Assembly (NCBI GenBank): GCA_030017955.1
Contig: JASEGR010000006.1
Coordinates: forward strand, 1-60,138
Direction of reading: 5' to 3'
DNA length: 60,138 nucleotides
Source: Candidatus Eisenbacteria bacterium
Lineage (GTDB): Bacteria > Eisenbacteria > RBG-16-71-46 > JASEGR01
Part shown: piece after piece, positions 28,604 to 54,745 of the stretch
Layout: each line of letters opens with the position of its first letter
Numbering within the stretch: the first letter of the stretch is position 1
Made by a program: the position numbers and the translations under genes
Notes under the pieces: model-generated
The model's input: only the letters and a program-made list of their open reading frames with translations
Told to the model about the DNA's origin: nothing
Databases searched by the model: none

Positions 28604-31075
28604 CTATTTTTCCAGTTCGTCCAGCTTCTCCTTGCATTCAGCAAGTTTTCTCCGGTTCGAGAACTGCTCAAACTTGGAGCAAGCACTTCTCAGCCAACCG
28701 GAAGCCCTAGTCTTTTCCCCTTTGACCATGAAAAGAATGCCCATCTCAAACTCGGTCTCGGCAATACCCATGTTGTTCTTCGCATTCCTGAATGCGTGGA
28801 GAGCGCGCTCAAAATGCTCCTCGGCCTTCACCCACCTTCCTTTTTCTCTCTCAATCATGCCCATCACAATCTCGTATCCGCCGAAGCCAGTCTCGATCTC
28901 CAGAACTTGTAAAAGATAGGCTGCCTTGGCGGCGTACTCTTCCGCGGTGTCGATATCCTTGACACCCAGGGCACATGCTGCCCTCCCAAGGAAACTGAAA
29001 CACTTGATCCAGGACACTCCTATTCTGTCTGATATGGAGAGACTCTTACTGTAGTAGACTTGAGCTTCCCGCCAGTTTTTCTGGTCGAGGTGCGCAGTTG
29101 CTATGTTATGCAGAGTTGATGCCAAGTCATAAAGATCGTTTTCTTCCTCATAGATCGGAATGCATTTCTCCAGCCATTCAATGGCTTTTGCCATATTTCC
29201 CTTGTAAACCTCAAGCCCACCCAGACTGTTGTAGGTTCTGCCAACGAGCACCCTGACTTTTGAAGCCGTCGCATACTCCATGGCCTCCCTGAGTCTCTTC
29301 TCGCAACCGTCCCAATTTCCCTGCTCGAGGAAGAGGCTCCCAATCCTGTAGCATGCAACGGCCTTGACTGAAGGGTCGTTGTCGCCCACCAACGAAAGAG
29401 CCGTCTCGAAGCACTTCCGGGCGTATTCGGACTCTCCCCTCTGCTTCTCTATCATCCCGGTCGTGAGAAGTGCCTGGCTCTCCGAAACAGGGTCATTGAG
29501 AAGGCCGGCAAGCGTCATGGCTTCCTCACAGTATTGAAGCGACTGGTCCCAGTTTCCGAGAAGTTCGTGAAGTCTTCCAAGCTGAAGTTTCACGGAGAGC
29601 ATCTCAGCAGAGCCCTCCTTTCCTTTCCCGAGAACCTCCCCGGCCCTTTCAAGAGGTTTTACCGCATCGGCGTAGGCCGAGCCCGATGCGAGGAGTGATG
29701 CAGAACGAAGAAGATGCGGCACAGCCTCCGGTTTCTCGCCCGCATCCCAGAGGTGATGCGCCAGTCTATGGGTCTTCTCGTCTTCGCTGAGAGACTGAGC
29801 TCTTTGGACTGCACCGGCGGCTTTCTTGTTGAGTCTTATTCTTTCTTCACCCGTCAACGATTCAAGAATCCGTTCACGCACAAGCGGGTGTGCGAACGTG
29901 AACTTCTCACCATCAAGAGAAAGAAATCTGAACTCGCTTGAGAGTTCCTCAATCATCATGACAAGGTTTGCTTTCTCCTCGCCAAGCGCTTTCTCAAGGA
30001 GCTCGGCAGGGAAACTGTATCCCAGGATGGAGGCAAGATTCACAATTGTCCTCTTCTCTTCATCCAGGGAGCTGGCCAGATTGGAAAGCCTGAGGTTCAG
30101 CCGTTCGGTAACACCTTCTCCAATGACATCATACATTCCCTCTGTCGGTTGGTTGTACCAGACTCCACCCCTGACATAAAGCTTCTGCACTCCTATAAGA
30201 CCTCTTATTTCCTCCTGGACAAGCAGAGGGTTCCCATCGGTCCGCCCATAAACATAGTCGGGAAACTCAGACGAAAGGTCTGACTTCGCCAGGTACTTGT
30301 GAACAAGTGTTCTTGTCTCCTGCCTGCCCAGCCTCTGAAGCTCAATCACTTCGATGCTCGGGTTTCCTCTTAACAGGCCGGCGACTTTGCTCTCTTTTGC
30401 GGGCATATGGCCCTGCGCCACAAGTTCTTCCCTTGAATTAAGGAGAACGAGAAGCACGCGGCTTCCGGAAAGCTGCGTCGGGCATCTTTCTATGAACTGA
30501 ACCGTCGTCCTGTCTGCCAGCTGGATGTCATCAAGCACAAGAAGCAGCGGAGATTCGACAGAGATGAAGTTCAGGGATTCGATGATCCTGAGCAGCATTC
30601 TTTCAGAACGCGTCTCATCTCCCACTAGACCGGGCTTTTCTTGCGCATTGTTCAGACAAACAGCCCTGGTTCCGAACTCGAGTAGTTCCCTGAGGAAAGA
30701 AGGCAGTTCCAGACATCTTGAGAAGTTCTTTCTTGCGTAGTCCTGAAGTACCTGCAGAATCGGCTGGCACGGCGCTGAATGCAAGCTGGACATCGAACTT
30801 GTCTTGAGCACCTCGACGCCCTTCCAAAGAGCCCTCTTCGCGAATTCCTCCATGAGGCGAGTCTTACCGACTCCAGGTTCTCCCGAGATAAGAACGACTT
30901 TCCCTGACCATTTCACGCATGAATCAAGACAAGCTTCCAGCCTCTGAAGCTCCTTTTCTCTTCCGACAAAAGGCGGCTTGAGTTGGAGGATGTAGCGTGC
31001 ATCCTCAAGGCCGGATGCCCAGTCGATTCCAAGGGTCGAAAAGTCAATTTCAGGGACAGCGTCTTTCCTTTTCAC
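28604..31075 (-). CDS. AAA-type ATPase with C-terminal TPR repeats (cyclase-associated)
   Basis: About 823 residues. The GTG at 31075 is chosen because AAGGAG lies six bases upstream; the frame extends to 31174 without such a site. An AAA_16/NACHT-like domain begins at PPFVGREKELQRLEACLD, with Walker A ISGEPGVGKTRLMEEF (about residues 63-78) and Walker B LLLVLDDIQLADRTTVQFIE. The second half consists of about eight tetratricopeptide repeats (for example LLNDPVSESQALLTTGMIEK, AVACYRIGSLFLEQGNWDGC). No DNA-binding domain is visible at the C terminus, so it is not a LuxR/MalT regulator. In many bacteria and in mammalian soluble adenylyl cyclase, this AAA-TPR module is fused to a class III cyclase; here a CHASE2 cyclase gene lies immediately upstream on the same strand, so a functional pair is likely. 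Confidence 0.82.
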   Translation of the reverse strand: MKRKDAVPEIDFSTLGIDWASGLEDARYILQLKPPFVGREKELQRLEACLDSCVKWSGKVVLISGEPGVGKTRLMEEFAKRALWKGVEVLKTSSMSSLHSAPCQPILQVLQDYARKNFSRCLELPSFLRELLEFGTRAVCLNNAQEKPGLVGDETRSERMLLRIIESLNFISVESPLLLVLDDIQLADRTTVQFIERCPTQLSGSRVLLVLLNSREELVAQGHMPAKESKVAGLLRGNPSIEVIELQRLGRQETRTLVHKYLAKSDLSSEFPDYVYGRTDGNPLLVQEEIRGLIGVQKLYVRGGVWYNQPTEGMYDVIGEGVTERLNLRLSNLASSLDEEKRTIVNLASILGYSFPAELLEKALGEEKANLVMMIEELSSEFRFLSLDGEKFTFAHPLVRERILESLTGEERIRLNKKAAGAVQRAQSLSEDEKTHRLAHHLWDAGEKPEAVPHLLRSASLLASGSAYADAVKPLERAGEVLGKGKEGSAEMLSVKLQLGRLHELLGNWDQSLQYCEEAMTLAGLLNDPVSESQALLTTGMIEKQRGESEYARKCFETALSLVGDNDPSVKAVACYRIGSLFLEQGNWDGCEKRLREAMEYATASKVRVLVGRTYNSLGGLEVYKGNMAKAIEWLEKCIPIYEEENDLYDLASTLHNIATAHLDQKNWREAQVYYSKSLSISDRIGVSWIKCFSFLGRAACALGVKDIDTAEEYAAKAAYLLQVLEIETGFGGYEIVMGMIEREKGRWVKAEEHFERALHAFRNAKNNMGIAETEFEMGILFMVKGEKTRASGWLRSACSKFEQFSNRRKLAECKEKLDELEK

Positions 31076-31438
31076 TTTCTTCTCCTTAGGCAGTTCCCTC
31101 GAAGCCTGCCCATGAGAGGAAAGCAATGCCCGTGCCACGAAGTGCTCCGCCGGATGAGCGACCGCTCGGGGCAAAGCAACTTCTGCATTGGCTTAGAGTT
31201 AGCAGTCCCAGGTTAGATATGTCTCAGGGGCAACGATGCCGCAGGCACGGGAGAAAGAAAGAAAGCGAGCGGAAAAAGACGCCGCCAGGAACGGAATACC
31301 CTTCACAATCTATTTGTCTTTCAGCTGATAAGGACTGGTGGCTGAAAAGAACCAGCCTGAAGATTTTTCACCAGTTCACGGGGGAAGTATTCCTGAGCCC
31401 ATGACAGACCAGAGACTTGCCTCGGCCTGCTCTGGGCG
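31076..31438. other. Intergenic region between cyclase and ATPase genes
   Basis: 363 bases without a recognised gene. A weak stem (CTGGTGGCTG with AACCAGC, around 31334-31360) lies after the cyclase stop. I found no clear promoter, so co-transcription with the cyclase is possible but not shown. Confidence 0.3.
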
Positions 31439-33562
31439 TTACTTCACCTCAAACTCGAAGATTCCGTCCCAGTTGTCGGGCGGCGGATTCTTGGCAAACG
31501 AAAGGCATCTTGCGAGATACGTCTTCGAGGGACCATCAGCCGGCCTAATCTTGAGCACTTGTTCGAAGAAGGACACTGCCTCGCTCCACTTGCGAAGGTG
31601 GTAAAGCGCAAGCCCCTTCTCATACAACTCAAGTGCAGCCCGAAAACCGTCTTCGAGAGGCTCTCCCTTCATTCCGAGAAGCTCGTAAATCTTGATCGGC
31701 AGCTTTTTCCCCTTCACCCTCACTTCATCCAGCTCTCTCACATCTACTTCGTCCTTCACCCGCAAGTATGTCATCTCACTGATCAGCAGGTCTGTTCCAT
31801 ATTCCTTGTTTGCTCCCTCGAGGCGTGAAGCCAGGTTCACTGAGTCGCCTATCGCAGTATAGTCGAAAAGGACACTCGAACCCATATTCCCGACAACTGC
31901 CCTTCCGGAATTGATGCCGGTACGGTTCCGGAACGGAATCTTCCCGGCATTCTCCCACTCCCTGCACATTTCTCTCAAGGCAGACTTCATCTTCAAGGCA
32001 CACCGGCAGGCATTGAGCGGGTGTTTGTCAGTCGGGATAGGAGCACCGAATTCAGCCATGATTGCGTCACCCTGGTACTTGTCGAGAGTGCCGTCAAACT
32101 CGAAGATGACATCCGTCATTCTTGAGAGATATTCGTTCAGCCTCGCGCTCAGCTCGGAGGGCCCCAAGGATTCAGAAATCGTGGTGAAGCCCGCAATATC
32201 CGTAAAAAGGATGCTTATCTCCCTTTCCTCCCCTCCCAAGGCAAGAAGCTCAGGGTTCTTGAAAAGTTCGGTCATCACCGTCTTTGGAAGATAATGTTGG
32301 AATGCCGACTTGATGAATCTCTTGTCCTTCTGCTCTTCGACAAACATCTCGATGATTGTCGAGCAATTCGCGGCGAATATCGTAATCTCCGGAGCCATTA
32401 CATTCACCCATATCAGCTTCTTGGAGAACAAGACAATCGCACTCACGCCGACGCCCATGGAGAGGACAACAAGGACCAGAAGCCCGAGAGTCGGCTTTTT
32501 CGTTCTGCGCGTCAGGAATATTGTCAGCAGAGAAATTGCCAGATAGAGGGGCACGTAAGCCAGCCCCTTGCCTCCGCCCGGGGCCCTGATGAACTTGCCG
32601 TCCAGGACAGTCCTCAGAGCGTTGGCGTGCATTTCTACTCCGGGCATGTAGCTCTTCGATCCTCCCCGTCCCTTGTAGAACGGAGTAAGAACAAGATCAT
32701 GAGCTTCCAGGAGGCTGACGCCAATCAGAACTATCTTGTCCCGAAAAACACCCGCTTCTTTCAGCACTTCAAAGCTGTCCATGTCCCCGTCACCCGTCAA
32801 CGTGAAGGTCGAGTCATCAAGAACAGATGACAGCGATTGGTACTTGAAGGAGTGAGGAGGCCCGGCGTAGTTGATCAGAAAGAAGTTGTCTCCATAAGCA
32901 GGTATTGTCGTCCTGCCAATCCTGAGTTTCGAATGAGTGTTTGCCGTCAGTGAATCCGGAATACCATACAGTTGTCTCAGAGCTTCGACACCAAGCGAGT
33001 GATAGATTTTTCCGGTTATGGTTCTTGAGAAGGCGTACCTCCTCAGGAATCCGTCGCTATCCGTGTAGCTGTCAACAAGACCCCAGGATTTCGCGCTTTG
33101 TCGCAGAGGCTCGATCGGCGGCAGAAGCCCAACCCCTTTCACCTTGCCCCTTATGTCGATGCTCCTCCCGGCGAGAATCACATTCCCCGCCTCTCTCAGC
33201 GCCTTGGCAAACAGAAGATCTTCTGCTTCGCTTGAGGCCTCGGTGAATTCCACGTCGAAAACCACAAGCTTCGCGCCGGCCGCCTTAAGATTCGTGACTG
33301 CCCTCCCGTAGAGGCTCCTCGGCCAGGGATATGAATAGGGCAGGTCTTCAATCGAAGTATCATCGACTGCAATAATGATGATTTCATTTCCCGCATCTTC
33401 GGCACCTCTTATCTCGAATCTCTTGTTCAGGAAAAAGAGTTCCAGGTTGTCAAAAAAATCAATGTGGCTCAGGAAAAGCGCCAGGAAGGTGCTCGCAACG
33501 CAGATGAGAAGGTTTGTTACACTGAGAAATCTTACTCTTTTCTCAGCAGTCTTCTTCTTCAC
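31439..33562 (-). CDS. Adenylate/guanylate cyclase with CHASE2 sensor domain
   Basis: 707 residues. After one transmembrane segment (about 15-32) comes an extracytoplasmic CHASE2 domain (about 40-330, with IIIIAVDDTSIEDLPYSYPW and LVVFDVEFTEAS), then three more membrane segments (335-400) and a class III cyclase domain (about 445-630). Metal-binding Asp455 (LFTDIAGFTTIS) and Asp499 (YQGDAIMAEFGAP) are present. Lys495 and Asp567 (FDYTAIG) are the pair expected for adenine recognition, and Asn576 and Arg580 (SVNLASR) are the transition-state residues, so an active adenylate cyclase is predicted. A short TPR-like tail (640-690) follows. The start is a GTG at 33562. It lies after an outer-membrane-like protein and a FecR protein, before an AAA-TPR ATPase. 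The ligand is unknown. Confidence 0.92.
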   Translation of the reverse strand: MKKKTAEKRVRFLSVTNLLICVASTFLALFLSHIDFFDNLELFFLNKRFEIRGAEDAGNEIIIIAVDDTSIEDLPYSYPWPRSLYGRAVTNLKAAGAKLVVFDVEFTEASSEAEDLLFAKALREAGNVILAGRSIDIRGKVKGVGLLPPIEPLRQSAKSWGLVDSYTDSDGFLRRYAFSRTITGKIYHSLGVEALRQLYGIPDSLTANTHSKLRIGRTTIPAYGDNFFLINYAGPPHSFKYQSLSSVLDDSTFTLTGDGDMDSFEVLKEAGVFRDKIVLIGVSLLEAHDLVLTPFYKGRGGSKSYMPGVEMHANALRTVLDGKFIRAPGGGKGLAYVPLYLAISLLTIFLTRRTKKPTLGLLVLVVLSMGVGVSAIVLFSKKLIWVNVMAPEITIFAANCSTIIEMFVEEQKDKRFIKSAFQHYLPKTVMTELFKNPELLALGGEEREISILFTDIAGFTTISESLGPSELSARLNEYLSRMTDVIFEFDGTLDKYQGDAIMAEFGAPIPTDKHPLNACRCALKMKSALREMCREWENAGKIPFRNRTGINSGRAVVGNMGSSVLFDYTAIGDSVNLASRLEGANKEYGTDLLISEMTYLRVKDEVDVRELDEVRVKGKKLPIKIYELLGMKGEPLEDGFRAALELYEKGLALYHLRKWSEAVSFFEQVLKIRPADGPSKTYLARCLSFAKNPPPDNWDGIFEFEVK

Positions 33563-33701: not shown

Positions 33702-36182
33702 CTAGAAATTCTGATTGAGCGTCACTCTGAATATCGTCTCACGGTAATCGTTTGAGGGAATTGCCTTGTCATTGAAGCGCACGCTCCCGACTTCAACGCC
33801 CAGGAGGGGACCTCTTGAAAAGCGGTAGTTGGCGCCTCCTTCGACGAAAGTTCTCATGGAGTTGTATACATTTGAATTACCTTCTGCACTGAGTGTCCTC
33901 AGAAGCGCAAAGACTTCGATTCTCTCTCTGAAGACTTTTCTGGTCGCCCCGATCATGTAACTCTTGAAGTCAACCGAGAGTGTATTCTGGTTCGGAAAAC
34001 TCTGTTTGTCCAGAGAGTAGCCGGCCCGCAGGGTAAGCCCGCGCGTGAGATCATTCTGGACATTAAGAGAAACCGAGGTTGTCTTGAGAACCGAAGCAGG
34101 ATTTACCTTGTCATCCTTCCTCGACGGTGCCACCACAACGCTCAAACGGGTCGGCTTCCTAAAAGGCGCCACCGTGACGTCGAAGCCCAGGGAATAGCTT
34201 GTGGTAACATCATTCACTCCGCCCAAGGTATCCGGAGCGTCGTTTTCTCTATCATAGATTCTGTAGGCGAAGGTAAATGAGTTCAGGTGATCCTCAAGGA
34301 GAACAAGAGCCGGCTTCGAAAAGCGAACCACGTTGCCGATCGGGAAAATGGCTTTGTCGTGTCTGGTGAGACTCCCTTTCCCGGGTGCAAGTCCGAGTGA
34401 GAAAGAAACCGACTTTGTCCACTTGGTCGCCTGCTTGTCTTTTGATAGATTGTCTCTGAAGCTCTCGTAAGTGATGCCGCCGGTGAGAAGACCTCCGCCG
34501 AACGAAATCTGATCCCTTGCTTTCATTCCCGCCTTGTCGTTCTGAAGAGATGTCGCGCCAAGGGAATAGTATGCAGAGCCGACGGATCTGTAGAGAATAT
34601 CGAACACATTCCTTTTTATGTTTCCCCTCAGTCTGACCCCGTAGGCTAACGATGAAAGATCCCGCGGGTCCAGAGGGACCGTGCTTGAGTTTATTACAAA
34701 ATACTTTTCATACTCGGAAGGATCAAAAGGAAGACTCACGTCAAACGTCGTGTCAGCTTCTGCCTTTGTGAGCGCCCCGCGCGATGTATCCAGCGTGATG
34801 AACGAGACTGCTCCCTCTCCCTCCATGATAATTCTCTTTCCCAGGAAATAGAAACCCAGGTCGGTACCCAGGACAATATTCTCTTTCGGATCCGTTCCGA
34901 ACTTTATGGAAGTAGGTCTATCTTGAACTTTGGCGAAGTTGACTCCAAACACAGTCATTCCGCGCGAAACTGACGTTCTCAGGCCGCGGAGCCTCTGCTT
35001 AAAAGTTCCCGCAGTTGTGACAACCACAGAGTCCACGCCGCCGACGCCCGTGAGAAGCTGCCCTTCTCCTTCAATCTTCCTCCTGGTCTCTCCTTCAACG
35101 TATGAAATACCGACCGGGCCGAGCTTCAGATTGGTTTGGGTTCCCCTCACCCTCTTTCCCCAGAGAACCAGCTCGGAGTATGTCGGAGTCACATCGCCGG
35201 CATAGAAATCAAGGTGAGGGAGTTTGAGCTCTCCTTTAAATTTGTGTTTGGGCTGCTTGTTACTTTTCTCATCAGAGGTCAGAAAAACGTTTCCCGAGTA
35301 TCTCAGGATAGAGTACTTCCCGGAGGCGCGAACCCTGAACATGTTCGTCTGGCCAGGCTCTTGCCTGACCGATGCGCCCGGTCCGGTTATGTCGTCGCTT
35401 TTCAGGTCGATGTAGGTATCTCCGGTAATGGAAGGGAGTCTCCCGGCAACTGATGTCTTGCCAGTCTGAAATGCAAGAGCAAACTCCGGCAGTGCGACCC
35501 CGGACGTGTCTGATGCTGTCACTGAGATCGTATGCGGGCCGAATGAGAGCGGCTTACTGGGAACGAATGTGAGAATGTACCGGGTGACATTCGCCTCATT
35601 CGTAACGTCCCTCCCGTCCAATTTGATCCTGACAGTCTTAACATCCACGCTGTTACCGTCTTCAAGAAACGAGAATGCAATTAGCGGCATTCTCTCAAGA
35701 ACGCCTGAGCCCTCTTCCGGGCTCAGCGGGACTATCTCCACACCCGTCGAGCTTCCGTCAGCATCGATCGCGGCCGGATTCAGCGATGGCTCTTCAGAGG
35801 GGAAGCTGGCCGAACCGCCCTGTTCGCCGGTTGCAACCACAAAATACTCTATGGCTCTCCCTTTCATATCAACCACTACATCATACTTCTGTTCGCCGAG
35901 AGGCCTCATCGCCGTCTTTCTGAATTCCTTGTCATTTGCCATTCTATGGAAGAGCTCAACCTCGTTAATCTTTCCCCCAACTGCCTCAACTTCAGCGACA
36001 ATTCGAGCCTTCCCGCCCTGAAGCAATTTCACAACCGGCACACCTCTTATTGAGATTCCCTCGTCCGGGGAGGCCGTGCTCGCGAGCGTGAGCGAAACAA
36101 GGAGAAGCAGCGCAGGCACGCACCGGAGCATGCTTACGCTGCAAGCTATCCTAGCGATTGGTCTGTTTCCTGGGTTCCGCAA
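33702..36182 (-). CDS. Large beta-strand-rich, probably outer-membrane protein of unknown function
   Basis: 826 residues from a TTG at 36182 behind GAGGAG. A signal peptide (MLRCVPALLLLVSLTLASTA region) is followed by an Ig/cohesin-like N-terminal part (about 45-260, with a stretch on FGPHTISVTASDTSGVALPE typical of Big/FN3-like folds) and a long C-terminal region of alternating beta strands (about 270-826) ending in FRVTLNQNF. A terminal Phe and strand periodicity suggest an outer-membrane beta barrel. It stands between FecR and the CHASE2 cyclase in one operon, so it could receive a surface signal and relay it through the periplasm to the cyclase. I do not recognise the family. Confidence 0.75.
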   Translation of the reverse strand: MRNPGNRPIARIACSVSMLRCVPALLLLVSLTLASTASPDEGISIRGVPVVKLLQGGKARIVAEVEAVGGKINEVELFHRMANDKEFRKTAMRPLGEQKYDVVVDMKGRAIEYFVVATGEQGGSASFPSEEPSLNPAAIDADGSSTGVEIVPLSPEEGSGVLERMPLIAFSFLEDGNSVDVKTVRIKLDGRDVTNEANVTRYILTFVPSKPLSFGPHTISVTASDTSGVALPEFALAFQTGKTSVAGRLPSITGDTYIDLKSDDITGPGASVRQEPGQTNMFRVRASGKYSILRYSGNVFLTSDEKSNKQPKHKFKGELKLPHLDFYAGDVTPTYSELVLWGKRVRGTQTNLKLGPVGISYVEGETRRKIEGEGQLLTGVGGVDSVVVTTAGTFKQRLRGLRTSVSRGMTVFGVNFAKVQDRPTSIKFGTDPKENIVLGTDLGFYFLGKRIIMEGEGAVSFITLDTSRGALTKAEADTTFDVSLPFDPSEYEKYFVINSSTVPLDPRDLSSLAYGVRLRGNIKRNVFDILYRSVGSAYYSLGATSLQNDKAGMKARDQISFGGGLLTGGITYESFRDNLSKDKQATKWTKSVSFSLGLAPGKGSLTRHDKAIFPIGNVVRFSKPALVLLEDHLNSFTFAYRIYDRENDAPDTLGGVNDVTTSYSLGFDVTVAPFRKPTRLSVVVAPSRKDDKVNPASVLKTTSVSLNVQNDLTRGLTLRAGYSLDKQSFPNQNTLSVDFKSYMIGATRKVFRERIEVFALLRTLSAEGNSNVYNSMRTFVEGGANYRFSRGPLLGVEVGSVRFNDKAIPSNDYRETIFRVTLNQNF

Positions 36183-38400: not shown

Positions 38401-38406
38401 TGTGTA

Positions 38407-38524: not shown

Positions 38525-38905
38525 ATGGGACAGACCCAGATTCTCATGATCGTTCTTGCAATAATCATAATTGCCGCTGCGGTGGCAGTGGGCTTGAGGC
38601 AATTCGGAAAAGCCGGGGAGCAGGCTGACCTTGATGCAGCAAGACAGGATTGCCAGAGAGTCGCTGCCTCGGCGCTTGCCTGGTATCAGAAACCTGCTGA
38701 ACTCGGAGGCGGCGGGAGGTCCTGGACTGGCGTAACGTTCGACAAAATTGGTGATGACGGCAAGACTACCGGCGGCATAGCAATGACCGTTGCTGATTCG
38801 TCCGGTTGGCTTAAGATTACTGCACCCACGGCAAAGAAGAACATTTTTGGCATATTGCATCCCGATTCTGCAAGGGGACTTATCACTAGAGCAGAGAACA
38901 GGTAG
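38525..38905 (+). CDS. Small pilin-like protein with a Met-Gly-Gln leader (candidate major pilin)
   Basis: 126 residues. The N terminus MGQTQILMIVLAIIIIAAAV is a two-residue leader followed directly by a hydrophobic helix, then an amphipathic stretch (GEQADLDAARQDCQRVAASA) and a Gly-rich head domain. The layout is that of type IV pilins, but the usual GFTLIE prepilin-peptidase site and its Glu+5 are missing; cleavage after Gly2 is my guess. It is the first gene of an operon with PilC, PilB and others, has a very strong ribosome binding site and is separated from pilC by a GC-rich hairpin, all consistent with the abundant major subunit. From memory, similar MGQ-type small proteins precede pilus genes in FCB-group bacteria. 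Confidence 0.72.
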   Translation: MGQTQILMIVLAIIIIAAAVAVGLRQFGKAGEQADLDAARQDCQRVAASALAWYQKPAELGGGGRSWTGVTFDKIGDDGKTTGGIAMTVADSSGWLKITAPTAKKNIFGILHPDSARGLITRAENR

Positions 38906-44724: not shown

Positions 44725-44763
44725 TCTAGGCATGTCCTCTCTTTGGCAGGGATGGTTTTCCTA

Positions 44764-46065: not shown

Positions 46066-47607
46066 ATGAAGCGCGGTGTAGGTATCGCAGTAGATGGAAC
46101 GGAAATAAGATCGGCGCATCTCGTGAAAGTGAACAAGGTCTTCAAGGTCCTCTCGCTTTCAAAGGGAAACTTGCTGACAAAGCTCGATGTGGCCGAAGAC
46201 GTTACAAAGGATAAGGAAGAAGTTTCCCTCAAAGAAATCTTTGGCGGCACGGAGCTTGGAGAAACCAAGCCGAAGGTGGAAGCTGAGGATAACTCGTCAG
46301 TCCTTCTGCGGATGCTTGGTGAAGCTACCTCGAAAGGCTCCCTTCTTGCGCTGAATCTCAGCGAATCGAACGTGCTCTTCTATGAGATTGACCCCTCCCG
46401 GTTTGGCAAGAATGCGGCAAAGCTGTCCAAGAAGAGCGTGATGAAGAAGCTCAGAGCCGAACTTGAGCGGAAAGGAGAAAGTCAGGCCAAGCTGAGTGAG
46501 CTTGATTGCTTCAGGACTGACAGAGGCAGCATTATCGGTCTTGCATACGACCCTCCCGGGGAGCTCCTTGCCCTGATATCGACCGTAAAGAGCTTCGTTA
46601 GCGCAAAGTTCAGGGTTTCAACCGTGGATTCGAACATGATTGCCCTAATGAACCTTGTCCGGGCCGATACCCCGGATAGAGACCAGGTCCAGGCCGTCGT
46701 TTACATCGGAAAGGAGTTCTCACGGGTCCTCTTCTTGAAAGGCGGCGACTACCTCCGCTCTTCCAGGGTAATCAATGAGGGAGCCGATTCTCCACAGATA
46801 CTTGAAACGGTTCACAGCAGGATAATATTCGAACAGGATGAGGCCGGCATCACCGAGGTCAACCGCGTCGTTCTCGCGGGAGACGTAGTACGACTCGGAG
46901 GGAAGGACTTCCTGGCTCCAAGATTTCCAAATGCGTCAGTCGAATATCTCGTTCCGCCCCAGTTGGATCTGAGCTCTCTCAGCGAAGAAGAAAAGGGAAC
47001 GGTTTGTGAGTACGCAATCCCCCTCGGCCTCGCATGGAAAGCTCTCGAACCCGGACATCCCGGGTTCTACCTAACGAACCTTCTTCCCGCCCAGGTCATC
47101 GAGATGGAGAAACTCATCAAGATTACCTGGTATCACATTGCCATTATTGCACTCTTTGTCCTGGCAGCGTTCTTCCTGGCAGGCAAGGACATTCAGATTT
47201 CATCCGCCATGAATTCAAGAAGGGCAAACATCAGTTATCTTGATCGCCAGATCGCAAAAGCAAAGCCTCTTCTTGTCGAGGTAGACCAGAATGAGGCGAG
47301 GCTCGTTTCTCTGGGAAAGGCACTTGGGCAGCTCAACGCACTGGAGAAGAGCACGCCCAGATGGACCACGATGTTCTCACGCATGGCGCGAGGCACGAGC
47401 GACCTCGGAGGTCTTTGGCTCACCGAGTTCGGGACGACTGAGAAAGGGATTCTCCTGGTGGGACGGTCGGTGTACAGAAATAGAGTCTCATCATTCTCCA
47501 AATACCTTGACAAGCCGAAACTCGGCGAGGTGAGGAGGGCAACTATAAGACAGAAGGAAATCTACTCATTTACATATGAAGCCGAGGGCTCAGGAGGAAA
47601 GAAGTAG
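46066..47607 (+). CDS. PilM-PilN fusion protein
   Basis: 513 residues. The first 325 have the actin-like ATPase shape of PilM/GspL: VGIAVDGTEIRSAHLVKVNK at the N terminus, VQAVVYIGKEFSRVLFLKGG in the middle and EVNRVVLAGDVVRLGG further on. Residues 336-341 read LTNLLP, matching the INLLP motif at the start of PilN that docks into PilM, and are followed by a transmembrane helix (about 355-373) and a periplasmic coiled-coil plus ferredoxin-like region as in PilN. In known pili PilM and PilN are separate proteins. The fusion would fix the inner-membrane alignment complex in a 1:1 ratio. Its TAG overlaps the next start by one base. Confidence 0.85.
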   Translation: MKRGVGIAVDGTEIRSAHLVKVNKVFKVLSLSKGNLLTKLDVAEDVTKDKEEVSLKEIFGGTELGETKPKVEAEDNSSVLLRMLGEATSKGSLLALNLSESNVLFYEIDPSRFGKNAAKLSKKSVMKKLRAELERKGESQAKLSELDCFRTDRGSIIGLAYDPPGELLALISTVKSFVSAKFRVSTVDSNMIALMNLVRADTPDRDQVQAVVYIGKEFSRVLFLKGGDYLRSSRVINEGADSPQILETVHSRIIFEQDEAGITEVNRVVLAGDVVRLGGKDFLAPRFPNASVEYLVPPQLDLSSLSEEEKGTVCEYAIPLGLAWKALEPGHPGFYLTNLLPAQVIEMEKLIKITWYHIAIIALFVLAAFFLAGKDIQISSAMNSRRANISYLDRQIAKAKPLLVEVDQNEARLVSLGKALGQLNALEKSTPRWTTMFSRMARGTSDLGGLWLTEFGTTEKGILLVGRSVYRNRVSSFSKYLDKPKLGEVRRATIRQKEIYSFTYEAEGSGGKK

Positions 47608-48497
47608 TGTCGAACGTACTGAGAACCACCCTGATAATGCTTGTTCTCTTCTGTGTCATCTTGAGTTTTGGGACTTACCGGGTCTTCAAGAAAAAAGCCG
47701 GTGAGGAGAGGGCTTTAAGGAAACTGGAGAACGGGAAGAAGACAGAGCTTGCGGCTGTCCGTTCGAGGATCGACTCCATACCGTTCTTGAAGACAAAGGT
47801 GAAGGAAAAGGAAGAAGAGCTTTCACGGCGTTCAAGGATACTGCCTTCGCAGAACGACCCCTCTACGACCTACGCATACTTCAATACGCTTTTTGGCAAG
47901 AGAGGCGCTTTCCTGAGTGCAGATTTCTCTTTCCAGGGAAAGACGGATGCTGAAGGCTACTCTTACAACACTTACAGATTGGGCGGAGACGGAGACTTCC
48001 TCCGGTTCTATTATTTCATCTGGTATCTTGAAAACATGCCGCTTCTTTACGGAATAGAGTCCATCAGGATCGATGCGATCCCTCCTTCCCAGGAAGACCC
48101 CAGACTGGGCAAGGTGAGATTCGAGGTCATCATCAGAGCTTACTACGCTCCCCACAGCGAGCTTCCCAAACCGAAAGTCTCTCCATTCCTGAGACCGGCA
48201 AGCATTAGTTTGAACCCCTTCTCACCCCTTGTCTATGAACTGCTTCCTCCAAACGACGAGGGGCTTCTTGATGTTGACACGGCGAGCCTTCTCGGAACCG
48301 GAAAGGGAGTCGCATTTCTCAAGGACGCAAGCGGAGACCTCTTTTCCCTCAGGGAAGGGGATAGAGTTTACCTTGGATTCGTATCCAAGATCGATTCTGA
48401 CAAAGGCGAAGTCGGATTCCTTCTCAACAAGGGAGGCGTAACGGAGAAGAAGTCCCTCAGGGTGGAGATGTTGACATCCGGAAGCCAAAAACGATAG
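47607..48497 (+). CDS. PilO-PilP fusion protein
   Basis: 296 residues from a GTG at 47607 behind GGAGG, sharing a base with the previous TAG. One transmembrane helix (about 6-24), a coiled coil (about 30-75) and a ferredoxin-like periplasmic domain (about 85-183) give the PilO layout. A Pro/Ser linker then leads to a C-terminal domain (about 200-292) with LNPFSPLVYE and GDLFSLREGDRVYLGFVSKI followed by repeated short strands, the pattern of the PilP beta-sandwich that contacts the secretin. PilP is normally a separate lipoprotein. Here it is tied to PilO, so no separate lipoprotein is needed. The PilP assignment rests on short motifs and is less sure than PilO. Confidence 0.75.
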   Translation: MSNVLRTTLIMLVLFCVILSFGTYRVFKKKAGEERALRKLENGKKTELAAVRSRIDSIPFLKTKVKEKEEELSRRSRILPSQNDPSTTYAYFNTLFGKRGAFLSADFSFQGKTDAEGYSYNTYRLGGDGDFLRFYYFIWYLENMPLLYGIESIRIDAIPPSQEDPRLGKVRFEVIIRAYYAPHSELPKPKVSPFLRPASISLNPFSPLVYELLPPNDEGLLDVDTASLLGTGKGVAFLKDASGDLFSLREGDRVYLGFVSKIDSDKGEVGFLLNKGGVTEKKSLRVEMLTSGSQKR

Positions 48498-48547
48498 TCA
48501 AGATCCTGGCTCTGCTCAAGTGAGTGCTTAGTCAACAGCTCCGGGGG

Positions 48548-48562
48548 TTCTCCAAAGGAGAA
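48548..48562 (+). promoter_or_regulatory. Hairpin covering the secretin ribosome binding site
   Basis: TTCTCC (48548-48553) pairs with GGAGAA (48557-48562) around AAA; the right arm contains the AAGGAG ribosome binding site of the secretin gene, whose ATG is at 48566. Translation may be lowered unless the upstream gene is being translated. Confidence 0.45.
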
Positions 48563-48565
48563 AAC

Positions 48566-49732
48566 ATGAACCGCAAGTCTATTCTCTTTGTGATTCTTCT
48601 CACTGCGGCTGCTGGCATAACGCAATGCTGGGCCCAGAAAGCGACACAGAGCGGCATTTCCCGGGAGGCCGAAATAGTTGCCCTGAGCGGGAAAGCCACC
48701 TTCAGGGAGGCAATGAGAGTAATTGAGTCTGTGAGCGGCATGAGAATCATCGCGCCTGAAGACTATAAAGATGCAGATAAGGAAATCGGGTTCGATGTGC
48801 CCGGTGTCCAGTGGAAGGTTGCTCTCAATATCATTGCCAAGGACAGAGGCCTTGAGATTGTTTCGCGGGAAAGGACTATTGAGCTAAGGAAGAGACTCGA
48901 GGAGGGAGGAAGAGAGGCCGCTCCCTCGCCTGAGGTTCTGGTCGATTCCAGAGAAGTCTCTATATCCGCCATCTTCTTTGAAGCAAATAGGTCTGCATTG
49001 AGAGAGCTTGGCATAGATTGGGCCTCTCTCAGGACCGGGGGTGTAAAATTCACCTTCAGCGACACGCTTGCGCTCAAAGACGGGAGAGTCAAGTCCGCAG
49101 GCGTGGCTGGAGGACCCACCGGCACAGTTGATGTCCTCACACTTCTCAGGTTCTTTGAATCGAGAGGCCAGGGTGAAGTTATTGCCAATCCTCAGATAAG
49201 AGTTCTCAGCGGGAAAGAAGGAAATGTGAAGGTTGGAACAGACTTCTTTGTCACAACAAGGGACTTTGCCGGGAATACAATTCAGCAGCTTCAGAGCACT
49301 GGAACAATCTTGACTGTGACTCCGCATGTCCTGACGCAGGACGGCGTTGACTTCATCTACCTCCTGATCAGTGCCGAAAGAAGTTCATACGAGGCCGGCA
49401 CCAGCACTATCGGAAAAACGACTGCTTCTACGTATGCTCTCCTCTTCAACGGTGAAGAGACTGCAATAGGAGGTCTCTACGGCACTTCCCAGGCAGTAAA
49501 AAGAGAAGGATTTCCGTTCCTCAAGGACCTCCCATGGTGGTTCTTTGGGTTGAAATACGTCTTTGGCTATGACAGCAAGCAGGTAACGAAAAATGAGCTT
49601 GTAATACTTGTCAAAGCAAACATCGTTCCAACACTCAAATCGCGCCTCGAGGAGAAAGAAAAAGACAAGTCCATGATGGAGAAGATTGAGCAGAGAAGAC
49701 AGGAGTTCGAACAGAGGACCAGGAGGAAATAG
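48566..49732 (+). CDS. Short secretin (PilQ/GspD-like outer-membrane channel)
   Basis: 388 residues from the ATG at 48566 with AAGGAG six bases upstream. A signal peptide (MNRKSILFVILLTAAAGITQ, ending near CWAQ) precedes one short N domain (about 40-95; SGKATFREAMRVIESVSGM is the secretin/TonB short N-terminal pattern) and then the secretin domain (about 130-365): QGEVIANPQIRVLSGKEGNV, STGTILTVTPHV, and the C-terminal signature KREGFPFLKDLPWWFFGL. Most PilQ/GspD proteins have several more N domains and are 600-700 residues, so this is unusually small. It should form the outer-membrane exit of the pilus or secretion machine. Its stop overlaps the next gene's start. Confidence 0.87.
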   Translation: MNRKSILFVILLTAAAGITQCWAQKATQSGISREAEIVALSGKATFREAMRVIESVSGMRIIAPEDYKDADKEIGFDVPGVQWKVALNIIAKDRGLEIVSRERTIELRKRLEEGGREAAPSPEVLVDSREVSISAIFFEANRSALRELGIDWASLRTGGVKFTFSDTLALKDGRVKSAGVAGGPTGTVDVLTLLRFFESRGQGEVIANPQIRVLSGKEGNVKVGTDFFVTTRDFAGNTIQQLQSTGTILTVTPHVLTQDGVDFIYLLISAERSSYEAGTSTIGKTTASTYALLFNGEETAIGGLYGTSQAVKREGFPFLKDLPWWFFGLKYVFGYDSKQVTKNELVILVKANIVPTLKSRLEEKEKDKSMMEKIEQRRQEFEQRTRRK

Positions 49733-50541
49733 TGTTTCGGAAGTTCGAGGTGACAATATCCCCTCCTGAAGTGGAAGAGAATCTGCCGTTTCTTGTCGAA
49801 AACGGCCTTGGCGTCGAACTCATGCTCTATGACATCGATTACACCAGAAATGCCAAGGCTGCCTCGCTTCAGAGAATCGGCAATCTCCTCAGAAAGAACG
49901 GCATAACTCCCACTGCGCACGGTCCGTTCTATGATCTGAATCCGGGGAGCAGGGATTCCTCGGTAAGAAGCTACACACTGCGCTGCTTCTCCGAGACTCT
50001 TGAAGCGTGCTCACATCTCGGAGTGAGCCTTGTTGTTTTCCACACGGGATTGAACCCTCTTCTTCCGATCACCTATCAGAAAATCTGGCTTGACATCTCC
50101 ATGGACTCGTGGAAACCGGTCGTGAGGGAAGCTGAGGAGAAGAAGATCGTCATTGCCATTGAGAACACATTTGCGCGGGATTCGTCGACAATTGAGGCAA
50201 TTGTCAGGGAAGTGTCCTCGGAGTGGCTCAAGGTGTGCTTTGATGCTGCCCATGTTCATGTCTATTCCAGGAAGCCGATCGAGGAATGGCTGGACAACCT
50301 GGACGGGCTGGTCAGAAAGATCCACTTGAATGACAACGCGGGAGAGCACGATGACCATCTCTCACTTGGCGAGGGGAATATGGATATCGTTAACGTCTTT
50401 CGCCAGCTCGAGAAGAGAAAGCTCTTTCCAATTGTTACCTTGGAACTCGACGTGAGCAGGTTCGAGAAAAGCCTTGATTTTCTGGAAGAACACAAGCTGT
50501 GGAAGCGAAAAAAACGTGAGCTAATTCCCCGCACCAAGTAG
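49732..50541 (+). CDS. Sugar phosphate isomerase/AP-endonuclease-like TIM-barrel protein
   Basis: 269 residues from a GTG that shares one base with the secretin stop, behind AGGAGG. It has the xylose-isomerase-like TIM-barrel fold (AP_endonuc_2): FEVTISPPEVEENLPFLVEN, TPTAHGPFYDLNPGSRD, LVVFHTGLNPLL, IVIAIENTFARDSSTIEAIV, VCFDAAHVHVYSR and IHLNDNAGEHDDHLSLGEGN carry the metal-binding His, Glu, Asp and His residues of the family. The substrate could be a sugar phosphate or damaged DNA; nothing decides. Coupling to the secretin suggests it may help glycosylate pilus or surface components. Its 3' end overlaps the convergent cyclase gene by 21 bases. Confidence 0.82.
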   Translation: MFRKFEVTISPPEVEENLPFLVENGLGVELMLYDIDYTRNAKAASLQRIGNLLRKNGITPTAHGPFYDLNPGSRDSSVRSYTLRCFSETLEACSHLGVSLVVFHTGLNPLLPITYQKIWLDISMDSWKPVVREAEEKKIVIAIENTFARDSSTIEAIVREVSSEWLKVCFDAAHVHVYSRKPIEEWLDNLDGLVRKIHLNDNAGEHDDHLSLGEGNMDIVNVFRQLEKRKLFPIVTLELDVSRFEKSLDFLEEHKLWKRKKRELIPRTK

Positions 50542-52599
50542 TTCACAGCAGGACACAGGTTCTTTCCTGCCTTTCAGACTTACGGTGCCAAGCTCTCTGA
50601 CCATGAATTTTCCCTTTGCCCTTCTCAGAGTCTCCGTACTTACTATTATGTGCGTCCCGTAATCCTTGTTCAAACTTTCCAGTCTTGATGCAACGTTCAC
50701 ACCGTCACCCATCACCGTGTACTCCATCCTCTCAACTGAACCTACGTTCCCGGCGAAGACAATACCCGTGTTTATTCCGACCCCGATGTCCAGCGGAGGC
50801 TTGCCCTCCTCCTTCCACCTTGCGGACATTTCCCTTACCTTTGTCATCATAGCGATGGCAGTTCTGAGAGCCCTGTCGGGGTGATCGTCACACGCAACCG
50901 GAGCCCCGAAGATTGCCATTATCGCATCCCCCACAAATTTGTTGACTGTGCCCCCGTGAGAGAAAATGATTTCGGTCATAGCTGTAAGGTACTCATTTAT
51001 TAGCGGCACTAATTCTTCAGCCGAAAGCGTTTCAGATATCGTCGTAAAACCACGCACGTCGGAAAATAGTATGCTCACATCTCTTTTCTCGCCGGGAATG
51101 GTGGCCTGTCTGTTCTTGAGTATCTCGCCAAGCACATCAGGGGATACGTATTTTCCGAAAGTATTGCTTATCCTCTGCCTCTCTCTTCTCTCCTTCTCAA
51201 ATCTGTACCCAACTGTTCCCACAAACGTCCCGAACAGCGAAAACGTCGGGGCGGTCAGGTCCGTGATCAAACCCGACCTGGCAAACAAGAAACAGGACAA
51301 CGCGAAATATCCGGCTCCGAAAACAACAAAAATCAGGAGCGTCGTGATTGCCTTCCTCTCGGACACGAGATATGCGAGACCGAAAGACAGGACAAGGATG
51401 ACAAGCACCATGAAACGCATGGGCACAAGCGTGAGGAAGCTTCTTTCAAGAATGGTATGCAATGCATTTGCCTGAAATCCGACCATCGGATAGAGAGTCT
51501 CAAATGGAATAGTGGCTCTATCCTGCGAATCAAGTGTCGCGTCCCCGATAAGGACGACTCTGCCCTGAAGTTCGGCAAGTTTCTCCTTTGCTATCCTAGG
51601 TTGAAGATCATTGAGGATAAGATTTCGGGATTCGCAAATATCGAAATACGAGAATTTCTTTATCCCGTACCGGCCATCCCATTTTCCAGTCCAGTTGACA
51701 ATCATCTGGCCTTCTCTATCAACTGGAATCCTGAGAGGTTTTTCCAGCCTCAGTCCCCCGGGTATCACCACCCACCTGCCGGATTCAAAAGTGACCTCCG
51801 ACAAATCGGCATCAAAATAGTCGCAGGCTATCGACAGGGCAATCGAAGGAAACAATCTCCCCTGAAAAGAAACCAGAACGGGATACTTTCTTGCAGTGCC
51901 GTCCGAGTTGAGTCCCCTCCTGCCGATGTCCGGGTCAAGCTGCTCAAAACCAACTCCTGCTGCCGCTGAAAGAAGAGTCTCGTTAGGAGGAAATATGTTC
52001 TTTGCGGGGAGCGCCCTTGTGTTTGAAAACGGGATTGAGAACTTCAGGGTCTGGGGCGAAAGAGAATTCGCATCCTTCCCTGGAACTTCCGCCTCATCGC
52101 CCCTTCCAAGTTCAAAGTACTGTCCCAGATGCACATGACCGTTCCTTAAGATAGATTCTCTGAACGCGGCATCATCATCCTTGCTGGACGAGAAAAAAAC
52201 ATCAAATCCCTCCGCTCTCGTTCCAAAGTCAGTAAGAGCATCAATCAAAAGAGCATGATAGATTCTTCGCCACGGCCACTTCTCTCCAAAGCCTTCTTCG
52301 CTCTTCTCATCGATTGTCACTATCGAGACAATGGAACTCCCCTTCGATTCACCTCTGATCCTGAACCTCAGGTCAACAGACTTGAGCTCCGCCGGATAGA
52401 AAACGCCTGCAACAAGGAGGATGAGAGTAAGAGATGCGGAAATAAGAGAGATTATGAGCGGGACGAGCAGGCCGCCACGCGGGCGGAAAGAACTCAGCAA
52501 TCCACGGAATCCACGAGGCGATCGCGGTTTTCCGGGTTTGTATGCTTCCCGGTCAGCGTTGGAAGAAGAGTTCATCCGGGCAAGCAGGTTAACGCGCAT
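50521..52599 (-). CDS. Adenylate/guanylate cyclase with CHASE2 sensor domain (second copy)
   Basis: About 692 residues from the ATG at 52599, inside the end of the FecR gene; a TTG at 52608 or an ATG at 52575 are alternatives. After a basic N terminus and a transmembrane helix (about 45-65) comes a CHASE2 domain (about 75-400; SIVSIVTIDEKSEEGFGEKW and LQGRVVLIGDATLDSQDR), three further helices, and a class III cyclase domain: ILFSDVRGFTTISETL, NKFVGDAIMAIFGAP and MEYTVMGDGVNVASRLESLN. Metal-binding Asp, Lys, Asn and Arg are present; the position of Asp567 in the first cyclase is Glu here (MEYT), so substrate choice is less clear, though still likely ATP. It forms an operon with a FecR protein and a GAF-SpoIIE phosphatase. 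Confidence 0.92.
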   Translation of the reverse strand: MRVNLLARMNSSSNADREAYKPGKPRSPRGFRGLLSSFRPRGGLLVPLIISLISASLTLILLVAGVFYPAELKSVDLRFRIRGESKGSSIVSIVTIDEKSEEGFGEKWPWRRIYHALLIDALTDFGTRAEGFDVFFSSSKDDDAAFRESILRNGHVHLGQYFELGRGDEAEVPGKDANSLSPQTLKFSIPFSNTRALPAKNIFPPNETLLSAAAGVGFEQLDPDIGRRGLNSDGTARKYPVLVSFQGRLFPSIALSIACDYFDADLSEVTFESGRWVVIPGGLRLEKPLRIPVDREGQMIVNWTGKWDGRYGIKKFSYFDICESRNLILNDLQPRIAKEKLAELQGRVVLIGDATLDSQDRATIPFETLYPMVGFQANALHTILERSFLTLVPMRFMVLVILVLSFGLAYLVSERKAITTLLIFVVFGAGYFALSCFLFARSGLITDLTAPTFSLFGTFVGTVGYRFEKERRERQRISNTFGKYVSPDVLGEILKNRQATIPGEKRDVSILFSDVRGFTTISETLSAEELVPLINEYLTAMTEIIFSHGGTVNKFVGDAIMAIFGAPVACDDHPDRALRTAIAMMTKVREMSARWKEEGKPPLDIGVGINTGIVFAGNVGSVERMEYTVMGDGVNVASRLESLNKDYGTHIIVSTETLRRAKGKFMVRELGTVSLKGRKEPVSCCELLGAGN

Positions 52600-53365
52600 C
52601 CCTTTCAAGATTCCACTTCACCCAGACGTCCAGGGAGTCAGCCGTCAAATCAAACTTCCGAGGAACGGGTTTTTCGTTGATGTTCCCCCCGTGTAATGTC
52701 ACCTCTTCAAGAGCGCTGAGGATGACCGTGTACTCGTTGAGAGTGACCTCCCGGGGCCCCGGCACCTGTCGCGGTCCTGAGACTTGCCGGGGGGACGTGA
52801 CCTTGTACCCAGTCTCCGCAGTGTCTTCCCCTTCCGGCATGACTCTGGAAGGAACAACTTTCACTGACCCGGTATACACTTTGACGGTAGTCATGCTATC
52901 CGAAAGAAGGTCTATTCTGAAGACTGTCCCTTCGACCCCGGTGAGCGCAATCGGGGTTCTCACCTCGAGCCCTTTGCCCTCCTCCTTCTTGTAGATCTTG
53001 CCCCAGACTTTTGCCTTGTCCTTCCCGGCAAGAGAAGGGAGAATTCTCGTTTTCACCTTTCCTGCTTTCAGACCTTCGATGAGTATGGACGTGTTTTCAT
53101 CAACTCTGAGCACCGTGCTTCCCGGAAAGGTGATCTCAACCCTCGATCCCTTCATGGTCGTTATCTTGTCGCCCTCTTTGACTATCATGTTGGGGAGAAT
53201 CCGGATCGTCTCCTTCTCACCTTTCCTCTCGAGGACGGCAACGGGGAGAACAAGTGTAACCCTGGCTTCCTTCCTTGGACCTGATTCCTGAGAGAAGCAG
53301 AGCGCCAGAGGCCCGGCAACAAGAACCAATACTGTACAGAAAAGAAGCGCCCTTCTGAACTTCAA
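52589..53365 (-). CDS. FecR-domain periplasmic protein (second copy)
   Basis: 258 residues from a TTG at 53365, chosen because AAAGGAGG lies six bases upstream; an ATG at 53407 would add 14 residues but lacks such a site. A signal peptide (LLFCTVLVLVAGPLALCFSQ) is followed by a FecR domain: LPNMIVKEGDKITTMKGSRV, VLRVDENTSILIEGLKAG and LEVRTPIALTGVEGTVFRID. Near residue 190 a short repeat (SPRQV, GPRQV, GPREV) occurs three times. It lies directly before a CHASE2 cyclase gene, repeating the FecR-cyclase arrangement of the left module. Confidence 0.88.
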   Translation of the reverse strand: MKFRRALLFCTVLVLVAGPLALCFSQESGPRKEARVTLVLPVAVLERKGEKETIRILPNMIVKEGDKITTMKGSRVEITFPGSTVLRVDENTSILIEGLKAGKVKTRILPSLAGKDKAKVWGKIYKKEEGKGLEVRTPIALTGVEGTVFRIDLLSDSMTTVKVYTGSVKVVPSRVMPEGEDTAETGYKVTSPRQVSGPRQVPGPREVTLNEYTVILSALEEVTLHGGNINEKPVPRKFDLTADSLDVWVKWNLERDAR

Positions 53366-53431
53366 GATGAACCTCCTTTCACACCCCAGCGTCTCACCCG
53401 ACGGCATGGGAACGCGACTGACGTTTCCGCA

Positions 53432-54745
53432 CTATATGTGCTTCAAGACCAGGAAGGTGATATCGTCACTCTCGACCGAGCCCGGGGAGAAACCGGCCAG
53501 ATTCTCGGAGATCTTATTCCCGGTCTCAGAAGCGTTGTTCTTCACGGAATTCTTCACAATATCCAGGAGGCGGTCGTCCCCGAATTCCTCGCCATCAGAA
53601 TTGGTCTTTTCGACGACCCCGTCGGTGAAGATGACGAGAGAGTCCCCCTTCTCCAGGCGAATCGTTCTTTCAACAAACTTCACGTCCCCGAGAACGCCGA
53701 GAGGAATTCCTCCCTCCGTGAGAAGCTCAATCTCCCCCGTACTTCTGGCGAGGACCGGCGGATTCTGCCCTGCATTTGAATAGGTAATAGTTTCCTTCTC
53801 AGGATCGAGCACTCCGAGAAACAGGGTGGCGAAATTTCCAGGGTCGGTGCACTCGAAAAGCAGGCTGCTCGTTTCCTCGGCGATCTTTGAGACGGTCTTC
53901 TGAGACCGCGATACGGTTTTTAGCAGCGCCTGGAGATTGGACATTAGAAGCGCAGCCGGCACTCCATGCCCGGTGACATCACCAAGGGCTATGCCGACTG
54001 CAGAGTTATCCAGGAACAGAAAGTCGTAGTAGTCTCCCCCAACCTCATCACACGGTTTGCTGAAAATGAATATCTCGTATCCCGGGATTTCTGGAGCTCC
54101 TGCCGGAAGCAGCCTCTTCTGGATTCTGGATGCAAGGGAAATCTCATGCTGGAGTCTTTCTCTTTCCAGAGATTCCTTGTGCAGTCTTGCATTCTCAAGC
54201 GCAAGTGCAGCATGAGTCGACAGTCCCTCAAGAAACCGCCTATCCTCCGAAGTGAAAGCACCCGCTTCTTTGTTGACAAGTTCAAACGATCCGATTATCT
54301 CGCCTTTTCTGTTCCTGAGAGGGATGCAGAGGAGAGAGCGGGTCCGGTAGCCGCTGAGTTCATCAAACTTCTTGTAAAACCTCGGGTCCGAATATGCGTC
54401 CTTTACGAAAACACTGTCACCGGTTCTTGCAACATAGCCGGCGATGCCGCAACTGACCGGAAATCTGACGTCTTCGATTTCTTCCCCAAGAGCAGCCCGT
54501 GCCCATAGTTCGCCTTTTTCCCTGTCCAGGAGAAAAATAGATCCTCTGTCTGCGTTAGTTCTATTGGTTGCAATCTCAGTTATGAGCTTAAGTAGCTCAT
54601 CGAGGTCAAGCGTGGAGTTGAGAATCTTGCTGGCCTCAATCAGTGAGAGAAGAAATGCACCTTGAGTCTCAAGGCTTTTTCTTCTCTCCCTTCGCCTTCT
54701 TTCCCTTCCATCCCAGGCCCGAGCGACATGTGCAGACAATTCCAT
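53432..54745 (-). CDS. GAF-domain SpoIIE-type serine phosphatase (RsbU-like)
   Basis: About 437 residues from the ATG at 54745 with GGGGGTG upstream; an earlier ATG (54766) has no ribosome binding site. A basic coiled N terminus precedes a GAF sensor domain (about 35-190; RGSIFLLDREKGELWARAAL and GIAGYVARTGDSVFVKDAYS) and a PP2C/SpoIIE catalytic domain (about 205-437) with EVGGDYYDFLFL, GIALGDVTGHGVPAALLMSN and SLVIFTDGVVEKTNSDGEEF, which hold the metal-binding Asp residues. Such proteins dephosphorylate anti-sigma-factor antagonists in partner-switching pathways. None of those partners is in the window. It is the first gene of the right FecR-cyclase operon. Confidence 0.92.
   Translation of the reverse strand: MELSAHVARAWDGRERRRRERRKSLETQGAFLLSLIEASKILNSTLDLDELLKLITEIATNRTNADRGSIFLLDREKGELWARAALGEEIEDVRFPVSCGIAGYVARTGDSVFVKDAYSDPRFYKKFDELSGYRTRSLLCIPLRNRKGEIIGSFELVNKEAGAFTSEDRRFLEGLSTHAALALENARLHKESLERERLQHEISLASRIQKRLLPAGAPEIPGYEIFIFSKPCDEVGGDYYDFLFLDNSAVGIALGDVTGHGVPAALLMSNLQALLKTVSRSQKTVSKIAEETSSLLFECTDPGNFATLFLGVLDPEKETITYSNAGQNPPVLARSTGEIELLTEGGIPLGVLGDVKFVERTIRLEKGDSLVIFTDGVVEKTNSDGEEFGDDRLLDIVKNSVKNNASETGNKISENLAGFSPGSVESDDITFLVLKHI

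Follow-up and report, generated by a model that had tools for sequence, protein, structure and literature searches.

A stand-alone cyclic-nucleotide-binding-fold protein encoded between the motor ATPase genes of a type IV pilus cluster, and its possible input from flanking CHASE2 cyclases in a Candidatus Eisenbacteria genome

Motor-level control of type IV pili is known to operate through cyclic di-GMP (c-di-GMP; MshEN, FimX) or PilZ, and control by cyclic AMP (cAMP) is known for transcription. PilZ, a protein with a c-di-GMP fold, binds the extension ATPase PilB without c-di-GMP, and in a 2024 review of PilB cofactors the phrase "cyclic nucleotide" is absent and cAMP acts via transcription by Vfr (PMC11656802). 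The Burkholderia BiofilmReg operon pairs a FecR protein with a CHASE2 histidine kinase and a response regulator (PMC5192318), and the Bacteroidetes type II secretion system ("T2SS") was found to branch with the type IVa pilus (T4aP; Denise et al., 2019, PMC6668835). Among open-access papers, we found none on cyclic-nucleotide-binding (CNB) proteins at pilus clusters or on links between CHASE2 cyclases and CNB proteins. Here, we analyzed a 60,138-nt stretch of DNA from Candidatus Eisenbacteria bacterium (assembly GCA_030017955.1, contig JASEGR010000006.1; hereafter, the window) that carries a pilus operon with a stand-alone gene for a 149-aa CNB-fold protein inside it and a CHASE2 cyclase on either side. 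An earlier note on this DNA had proposed that envelope signals set cyclic-nucleotide levels that the in-operon protein reads to control the pilus. Of that proposal, the in-operon CNB component was supported and a conserved cyclase bracket was not.

The CNB gene (42603..43052, + strand, TTG start; PF00027, cNMP_binding, 6.4e-12) lies in the interval between the genes of a PilB-like and a PilT-like ATPase. Scanning genome contigs with a PilT-like alignment yielded 80 loci sharing the gene order of this operon, an earlier scan with the PilMN protein as query having returned none. Judged by record titles, the loci belong mostly to Ignavibacteria/Melioribacter, Balneolaceae, and other Bacteroidetes-labelled genomes, with two from LCP-89 and one from Latescibacterota, so that almost all fall within Ignavibacteria, Balneolota/Rhodothermota, and LCP-89; the cluster is present in the named isolates Gracilimonas mengyeensis, Gracilimonas amylolytica, and Fodinibius halophilus. 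The Latescibacterota locus (L109) has pilT-pilMN-u296-secretin and no pilC or pilB within its stretch. With the window counted, a CNB gene occurred in 22 of the 70 loci with a readable pilB-pilT interval; its distance to the adjoining genes is mostly between a few and ~130 bp, and in most Balneolaceae it sits directly between pilB and pilT. On a tree of PilT-like proteins, in which the placement of the window is unsure and its branch long, CNB presence amounts to two changes. These results bear out the earlier view that the in-operon reader belongs to the pilus machine, and its recurrence in 21 homologous loci takes its position beyond chance. The gene thus appears, as gene order and phylogeny support, to be a conserved, vertically inherited part of the pilus cluster, and its product is very probably a dedicated pilus component.

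In LCP-89-like genomes, a response-regulator receiver domain is joined to the CNB domain in one protein; such fusions were found in four loci and form one supported clade on the PilT-like tree. Each of the two pilB genes of SKW228 comes with a CNB protein of its own, in one case a receiver fusion, which suggests that the CNB protein follows the motor. In that genome (L125:125-2879), the second pilB is succeeded by a fusion of a receiver with a degenerate CNB domain, beside the main pilus cluster. Elsewhere, a pilT-like gene is separated by 1 base from the gene of a 300-aa CNB protein (L269:7379-9334), in a genome with tandem pilB-like genes. One CNB-less Ignavibacteria locus (L137:15320-19545) encodes a hybrid histidine kinase (1179 aa) and a response regulator (229 aa) right after the secretin, and genes of similar size sit 3' of the secretin in many other loci. 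Since the pilus machine was found in 0/46 relatives from the window genome's class, the window pilus is isolated in its class.

An AlphaFold2 model of the CNB protein (predicted local distance difference test, pLDDT, 90.7) consists of a CNB barrel and a single long C-terminal helix (residues 111-148, 38 residues), and the nearest PDB structures by Foldseek were the CNB domains of CRP, PKA, and PKG. Neither the Pfam search nor the model revealed a helix-turn-helix (HTH) in the protein. Because no HTH follows the CNB domain and the chain ends in one long helix, we rejected a Crp/Fnr transcription factor as its identity. The window genome (3.1 Mb, 97% complete) likewise has no Crp-family HTH above cut-off, as against 14/14 control genomes with one. 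The cNMP-binding domain is matched by only two of its proteins, the pilus protein and an MscS-like channel that carries the domain at its C-terminus. The phrase "without a transcription factor" in the earlier note fits these results.

The only class III cyclase matches in the genome, which are also its only CHASE2 matches, are the two proteins flanking the operon. Both are on the - strand: the left one, with C-terminal TPR, at 31439..33562 (CHASE2 2.9e-46, Guanylate_cyc 1.6e-21) and the right one, convergent with the operon, at 50521..52608 (CHASE2 2.6e-41, Guanylate_cyc 1.7e-29). Both retain the six class III residues (two metal Asp, Lys, Thr, Asn, and Arg) within the motifs ILF[TS]D..GF, K..GDA, and YT..GD.VN.ASR, confirming the catalytic residues named earlier, and share a Lys/Thr pattern that we take to be that of class IIIb adenylyl cyclases. 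A recent tandem duplication was rejected as their origin, the two being only 31% identical and having closer relatives elsewhere. Both cyclases of the 3.1-Mb genome lie within ~7 kb of the operon ends, for which independent random placement gives a probability of ~7e-5 (a post hoc estimate). If cAMP is made, the Pfam-visible readers would be the pilus CNB protein and the MscS-like channel, an inventory drawn from an incomplete genome and one that readers of other folds would escape. A cAMP route that bypasses transcription is plausible in a genome whose only two class III cyclases flank the operon, which has no Crp-family HTH match above cut-off, and whose one further CNB protein belongs to the MscS-type channels.

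Taken together, we suggest that a type IV filament machine of the Fibrobacteres-Chlorobi-Bacteroidetes (FCB) group, found in Ignavibacteria, Balneolota, LCP-89, and the window lineage, has a dedicated CNB-fold regulator encoded between its extension and PilT-like ATPases. The protein would act as a dimeric adaptor, its subunits joined via the long C-terminal helix, that docks on the motor, most likely on PilB, and directly sets the balance of assembly and retraction, as PilZ-FimX does in other pili. Its input would differ by lineage, a ligand serving the stand-alone forms and phosphorylation the receiver fusions. In the window genome, the ligand would be cAMP from the two flanking CHASE2 cyclases, which would read the envelope via FecR and, for the left one, also via an outer-membrane-like protein. 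The gene content, the conserved position, the predicted fold, the cyclase residues, and the lack of Crp-type HTH matches on which this reading is built are observed. The adaptor role is argued from where the gene lies, its duplication together with pilB, and its fusion to a receiver, and the cAMP input from the few writers and readers and their proximity. We put the probability of the whole at roughly 0.48. A more committed version, in which envelope-sensing CHASE2 cyclases raise cAMP, the CNB adaptor reads it and gates the motor directly, and sister lineages use phosphorylation or possibly the cyclase-like DUF3095, is offered tentatively.

Several observations weigh against this reading. The clusters compared come from related lineages and are not independent trials. 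In the phosphate-binding cassette of the window protein (LGASVIVLQHPRTA), the Glu is replaced by Ala73 and the Arg is retained (Arg82, in PRTA); among the 16 stand-alone CNB proteins examined, the Glu is present in 15, the window protein being the exception, and the Arg in all 16, whereas only one of the four receiver-CNB fusions retains the Arg and three have lost it. The bracketing by CHASE2 modules proposed earlier failed to recur, CHASE2 and cyclase genes being found in 0/80 related pilus loci within scanned flanks of up to 10 kb per side, many of them shorter, at the edge of which the window's left cyclase would lie; FecR, for which detection was less sensitive, was not detected in them either. 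Nor does the presence of a cyclase track the CNB gene at the genome level, class III cyclases occurring in 19/21 genomes with the CNB gene and in 29/29 without it, a co-occurrence with no signal.

Two findings weaken the case for cAMP as the input: the Glu is lost, and the linkage to cyclases is not conserved. The CNB protein could instead be a nucleotide-independent adaptor, its fold kept for motor binding and its site decaying, with the cyclases unrelated to it. The lost Glu of the window protein and lost Arg of three receiver fusions would suit such an adaptor, as would the absence of cyclase linkage in other genomes, and PilZ provides a precedent (PMC11656802). Yet the near-complete retention of both cassette residues among stand-alone forms argues the other way, as does a genome without a Crp-type factor to take the cAMP, and we consider this alternative rather unlikely. 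Epac domains bind cAMP without the cassette Glu. By that precedent the Glu loss is compatible with cAMP binding, and the window protein may bind a cyclic nucleotide.

The left cyclase belongs to a cassette that is conserved away from the pilus. Genomes with the pilus supplied 20 CHASE2 cyclase loci, of which 15 are similar to the left one; 11 of these 15 have FecR upstream, 10 of them together with a member of the 826-aa protein family; such cassettes are present in genomes with and without the CNB gene. Because the cassette lies elsewhere, CHASE2 is lacking from the 80 loci, and cyclases occur regardless of the CNB gene, the cyclase-pilus link is not conserved. The CHASE2 cassettes are autonomous modules, and their siting by the pilus is particular to the window genome. 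They might sense the envelope for some other output (such as the MscS-CNB channel or a SpoIIE phosphatase partner switch), their adjacency to the pilus being chance or hitchhiking. Besides the cassette's conservation elsewhere, CHASE2 in relatives from the window genome's class is consistent with this: it occurs in 10/46 above cut-off (12/46 including weak matches), all without this pilus, and the reading frames that contain it match SpoIIE and adjoin a gene for a ~230-aa protein. However, both cyclases of the genome flank the operon without being recent duplicates, and ~490 bp separate the operon from the divergently oriented left cassette, so we judge an output unrelated to the pilus to be quite improbable.

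DUF3095 provided a further lead. It is encoded in 14/21 sampled genomes with the CNB gene, mostly Balneolales, as against 0/23 without it, and in three of the former it is the next gene 3' of the secretin (L117:15035-16258, L118:13895-15070, and L214:1501-2640). The best fold matches of a low-confidence model (pLDDT 38.7) are class III cyclases, including cUMP synthases. Comparison with class III cyclase profiles gave weak matches (E 0.41; in a second comparison E 0.052, probability 1%), and conservation of the class III catalytic motif does not extend to the Asn and Arg in its second half. We found no mention of DUF3095 in the open-access papers searched. The CNB family might read a different cyclic nucleotide, with DUF3095-type enzymes as its writers, in which case the window protein would be a relic whose writer was lost. 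The co-occurrence, with its three in-operon cases, and the cUMP synthase matches favour such a writer; however, the co-occurrence may be explained by Balneolales ancestry, DUF3095 is absent from the window genome, and the model and motif are as described, which leaves this explanation very improbable. As a cyclase homologue, DUF3095 is a lead only, backed by the low-confidence model and the motif positions.

The pilus genes span 38525 to 49732 on the + strand, with intergenic gaps mostly of -1 to 78 bp, and Pfam searches found the genes and domains named in the earlier note where it had placed them. That note began the operon at 38.5 kb and ended it at 49.7 kb; its machine genes were confirmed, but the open reading frame at 38184-38549 is probably spurious, and the operon begins with the pilin-like gene at 38525..38905. 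This gene encodes a 126-aa protein (MGQTQILMIVLAIII...) with no Pfam match and 41% identity over 78 aa to its SKW228 counterpart; homologues come first in 44/80 related loci, often duplicated, and inspection of its N-terminus (MGQTQILMIV) by eye revealed no canonical prepilin cleavage site. No Rfam riboswitch match was found 5' of it, the predicted fold there being no better than that of shuffled sequences. A PilC/GspF-like platform protein follows (38973..40325; T2SSF 2.7e-26; 54% to its SKW228 counterpart), then the PilB-like extension ATPase with its MshEN-like N-terminus (40336..42093; T2SSE 1.4e-105), which matched the PilB model at 2.8e-129, under the equivalog cut-off. This N-terminus is similar to the c-di-GMP motif of MshEN (SRIGEILSKKGIV; MshE-related match 5e-4, under the NCBIfam cut-off), in which the Arg is Lys in relatives without the CNB gene.

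The earlier note had set the CNB gene between pilin-like genes. The CNB gene is at that position, but Pfam gave no convincing match for its neighbours u163, u195, and u345 (163, 195, and 345 aa). We tentatively label as minor-pilin-like u163 (42100..42591), whose homologues lie immediately 5' of the CNB gene in several loci, and u195 (43063..43650), and as minor-pilin/PilX-like u345 (43654..44691), the latter two with syntenic homologues. The PilT-like ATPase (44743..45987; T2SSE 5.2e-32) is 52-62% identical to the proteins of the 80 loci and scored 318.4 bits against pilT_fam (cut-off 319.1). The reported "PilMN fusion" (46066..47607) can be called PilM-PilN-like from weak matches (PilN 0.012 at the C-terminus, PilM-like Amuc_1101 0.002) and position; it is syntenic in 76 related loci. 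The putatively PilO/PilP- or GspC-like u296 (47607..48497) has no Pfam match and is syntenic in 70 loci, and the secretin (48524..49732; PF00263 1.1e-26) completes the machine. Overlapping the secretin stop is a gene for a TIM-barrel protein (AP_endonuc_2; 49732..50541, +; PF01261 3.6e-35), which was not found in the 80 other pilus loci and is probably a passenger.

With a PilB-type ATPase, PilC/GspF platform, secretin, and PilT-type ATPase all present, the operon is, by its predicted proteins, a member of the type IV filament superfamily and T4aP-like. A type II secretion system was rejected, GspE, GspF, and GspD equivalog scores all being far under the curated cut-offs. A foreign island was also rejected, the block's G+C and third-codon-position G+C (GC3) matching those of its flanks.

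For the left module, the earlier note correctly listed FecR, the CHASE2 cyclase, and an AAA-TPR protein, but omitted two proteins. The cassette, on the - strand, begins with one of these, a secreted 356-aa protein (36964..38034) with weak homologues before FecR in L237 and L238, and continues with the FecR-domain periplasmic protein (36230..36967; PF04773 9.5e-11). The second omission is the 826-aa protein (33702..36182), which has an Ig-like N-terminal part, no Pfam match, and homologues between FecR and CHASE2 in 10/20 CHASE2 loci. The C-termini of its family are hydrophobic and mostly aromatic, as in outer-membrane barrels, and by this feature of its homologues it is a probable outer-membrane beta-barrel. 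The same order of FecR, an outer-membrane-like protein (790-915 aa, no Pfam match), and a CHASE2 cyclase occurs in the window (31439-38034) and in L224-L226, L231, L234, L236, L237, and L240-L242, and may constitute a trans-envelope cAMP sensor. The AAA_16-TPR gene (28604..31174, -; Pfam) lies 264 bp behind the left cyclase. The right module, also on the - strand, adds a FecR-domain protein (52589..53407; PF04773 1.2e-11) and a GAF-SpoIIE phosphatase (53432..54766; SpoIIE 1.8e-47, GAF).

In class relatives L271-L273, CHASE2 proteins matched the SpoIIE query and not the cyclase query, each behind a protein of ~225-230 aa. In two other genomes (L267:5190-10010 and L268:6872-12141), CNB genes come immediately after the gene of a CHASE2 cyclase, accompanied by GAF/SpoIIE-like proteins in L267 and by further CNB genes in L268; these are independent hints of a CHASE2-CNB link.

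Among described systems, the Bacteroidetes (Cytophaga) "T2SS" is likewise a type IV filament machine from the FCB group, and one for which neither the T2SS nor the classical T4aP is a good fit; the likeness is one of description, and no CNB protein is mentioned for it. BiofilmReg shares a FecR protein adjoining a CHASE2 sensor, but there the output is a histidine kinase and not a cyclase, and an outer-membrane-like partner is lacking. The cAMP-Vfr system of Pseudomonas and Cya1-Sycrp1 of Synechocystis also tie class III cyclase output to type IV pili; however, they use Crp-type transcription factors (PMC11656802, PMC7690835), whereas neither the CNB protein nor, above cut-off, the window genome has such an HTH. 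Closest in principle are PilB-PilZ-FimX and MshEN, in which a small cytoplasmic protein or domain of second-messenger fold acts on the extension ATPase. Here, the fold is CNB and not PilZ, EAL, or MshEN, the gene lies between pilB and pilT, and receiver-fused variants exist. If our reading is true, this arrangement would give second messengers a new path to pilus motors, in a machine common to several phyla.

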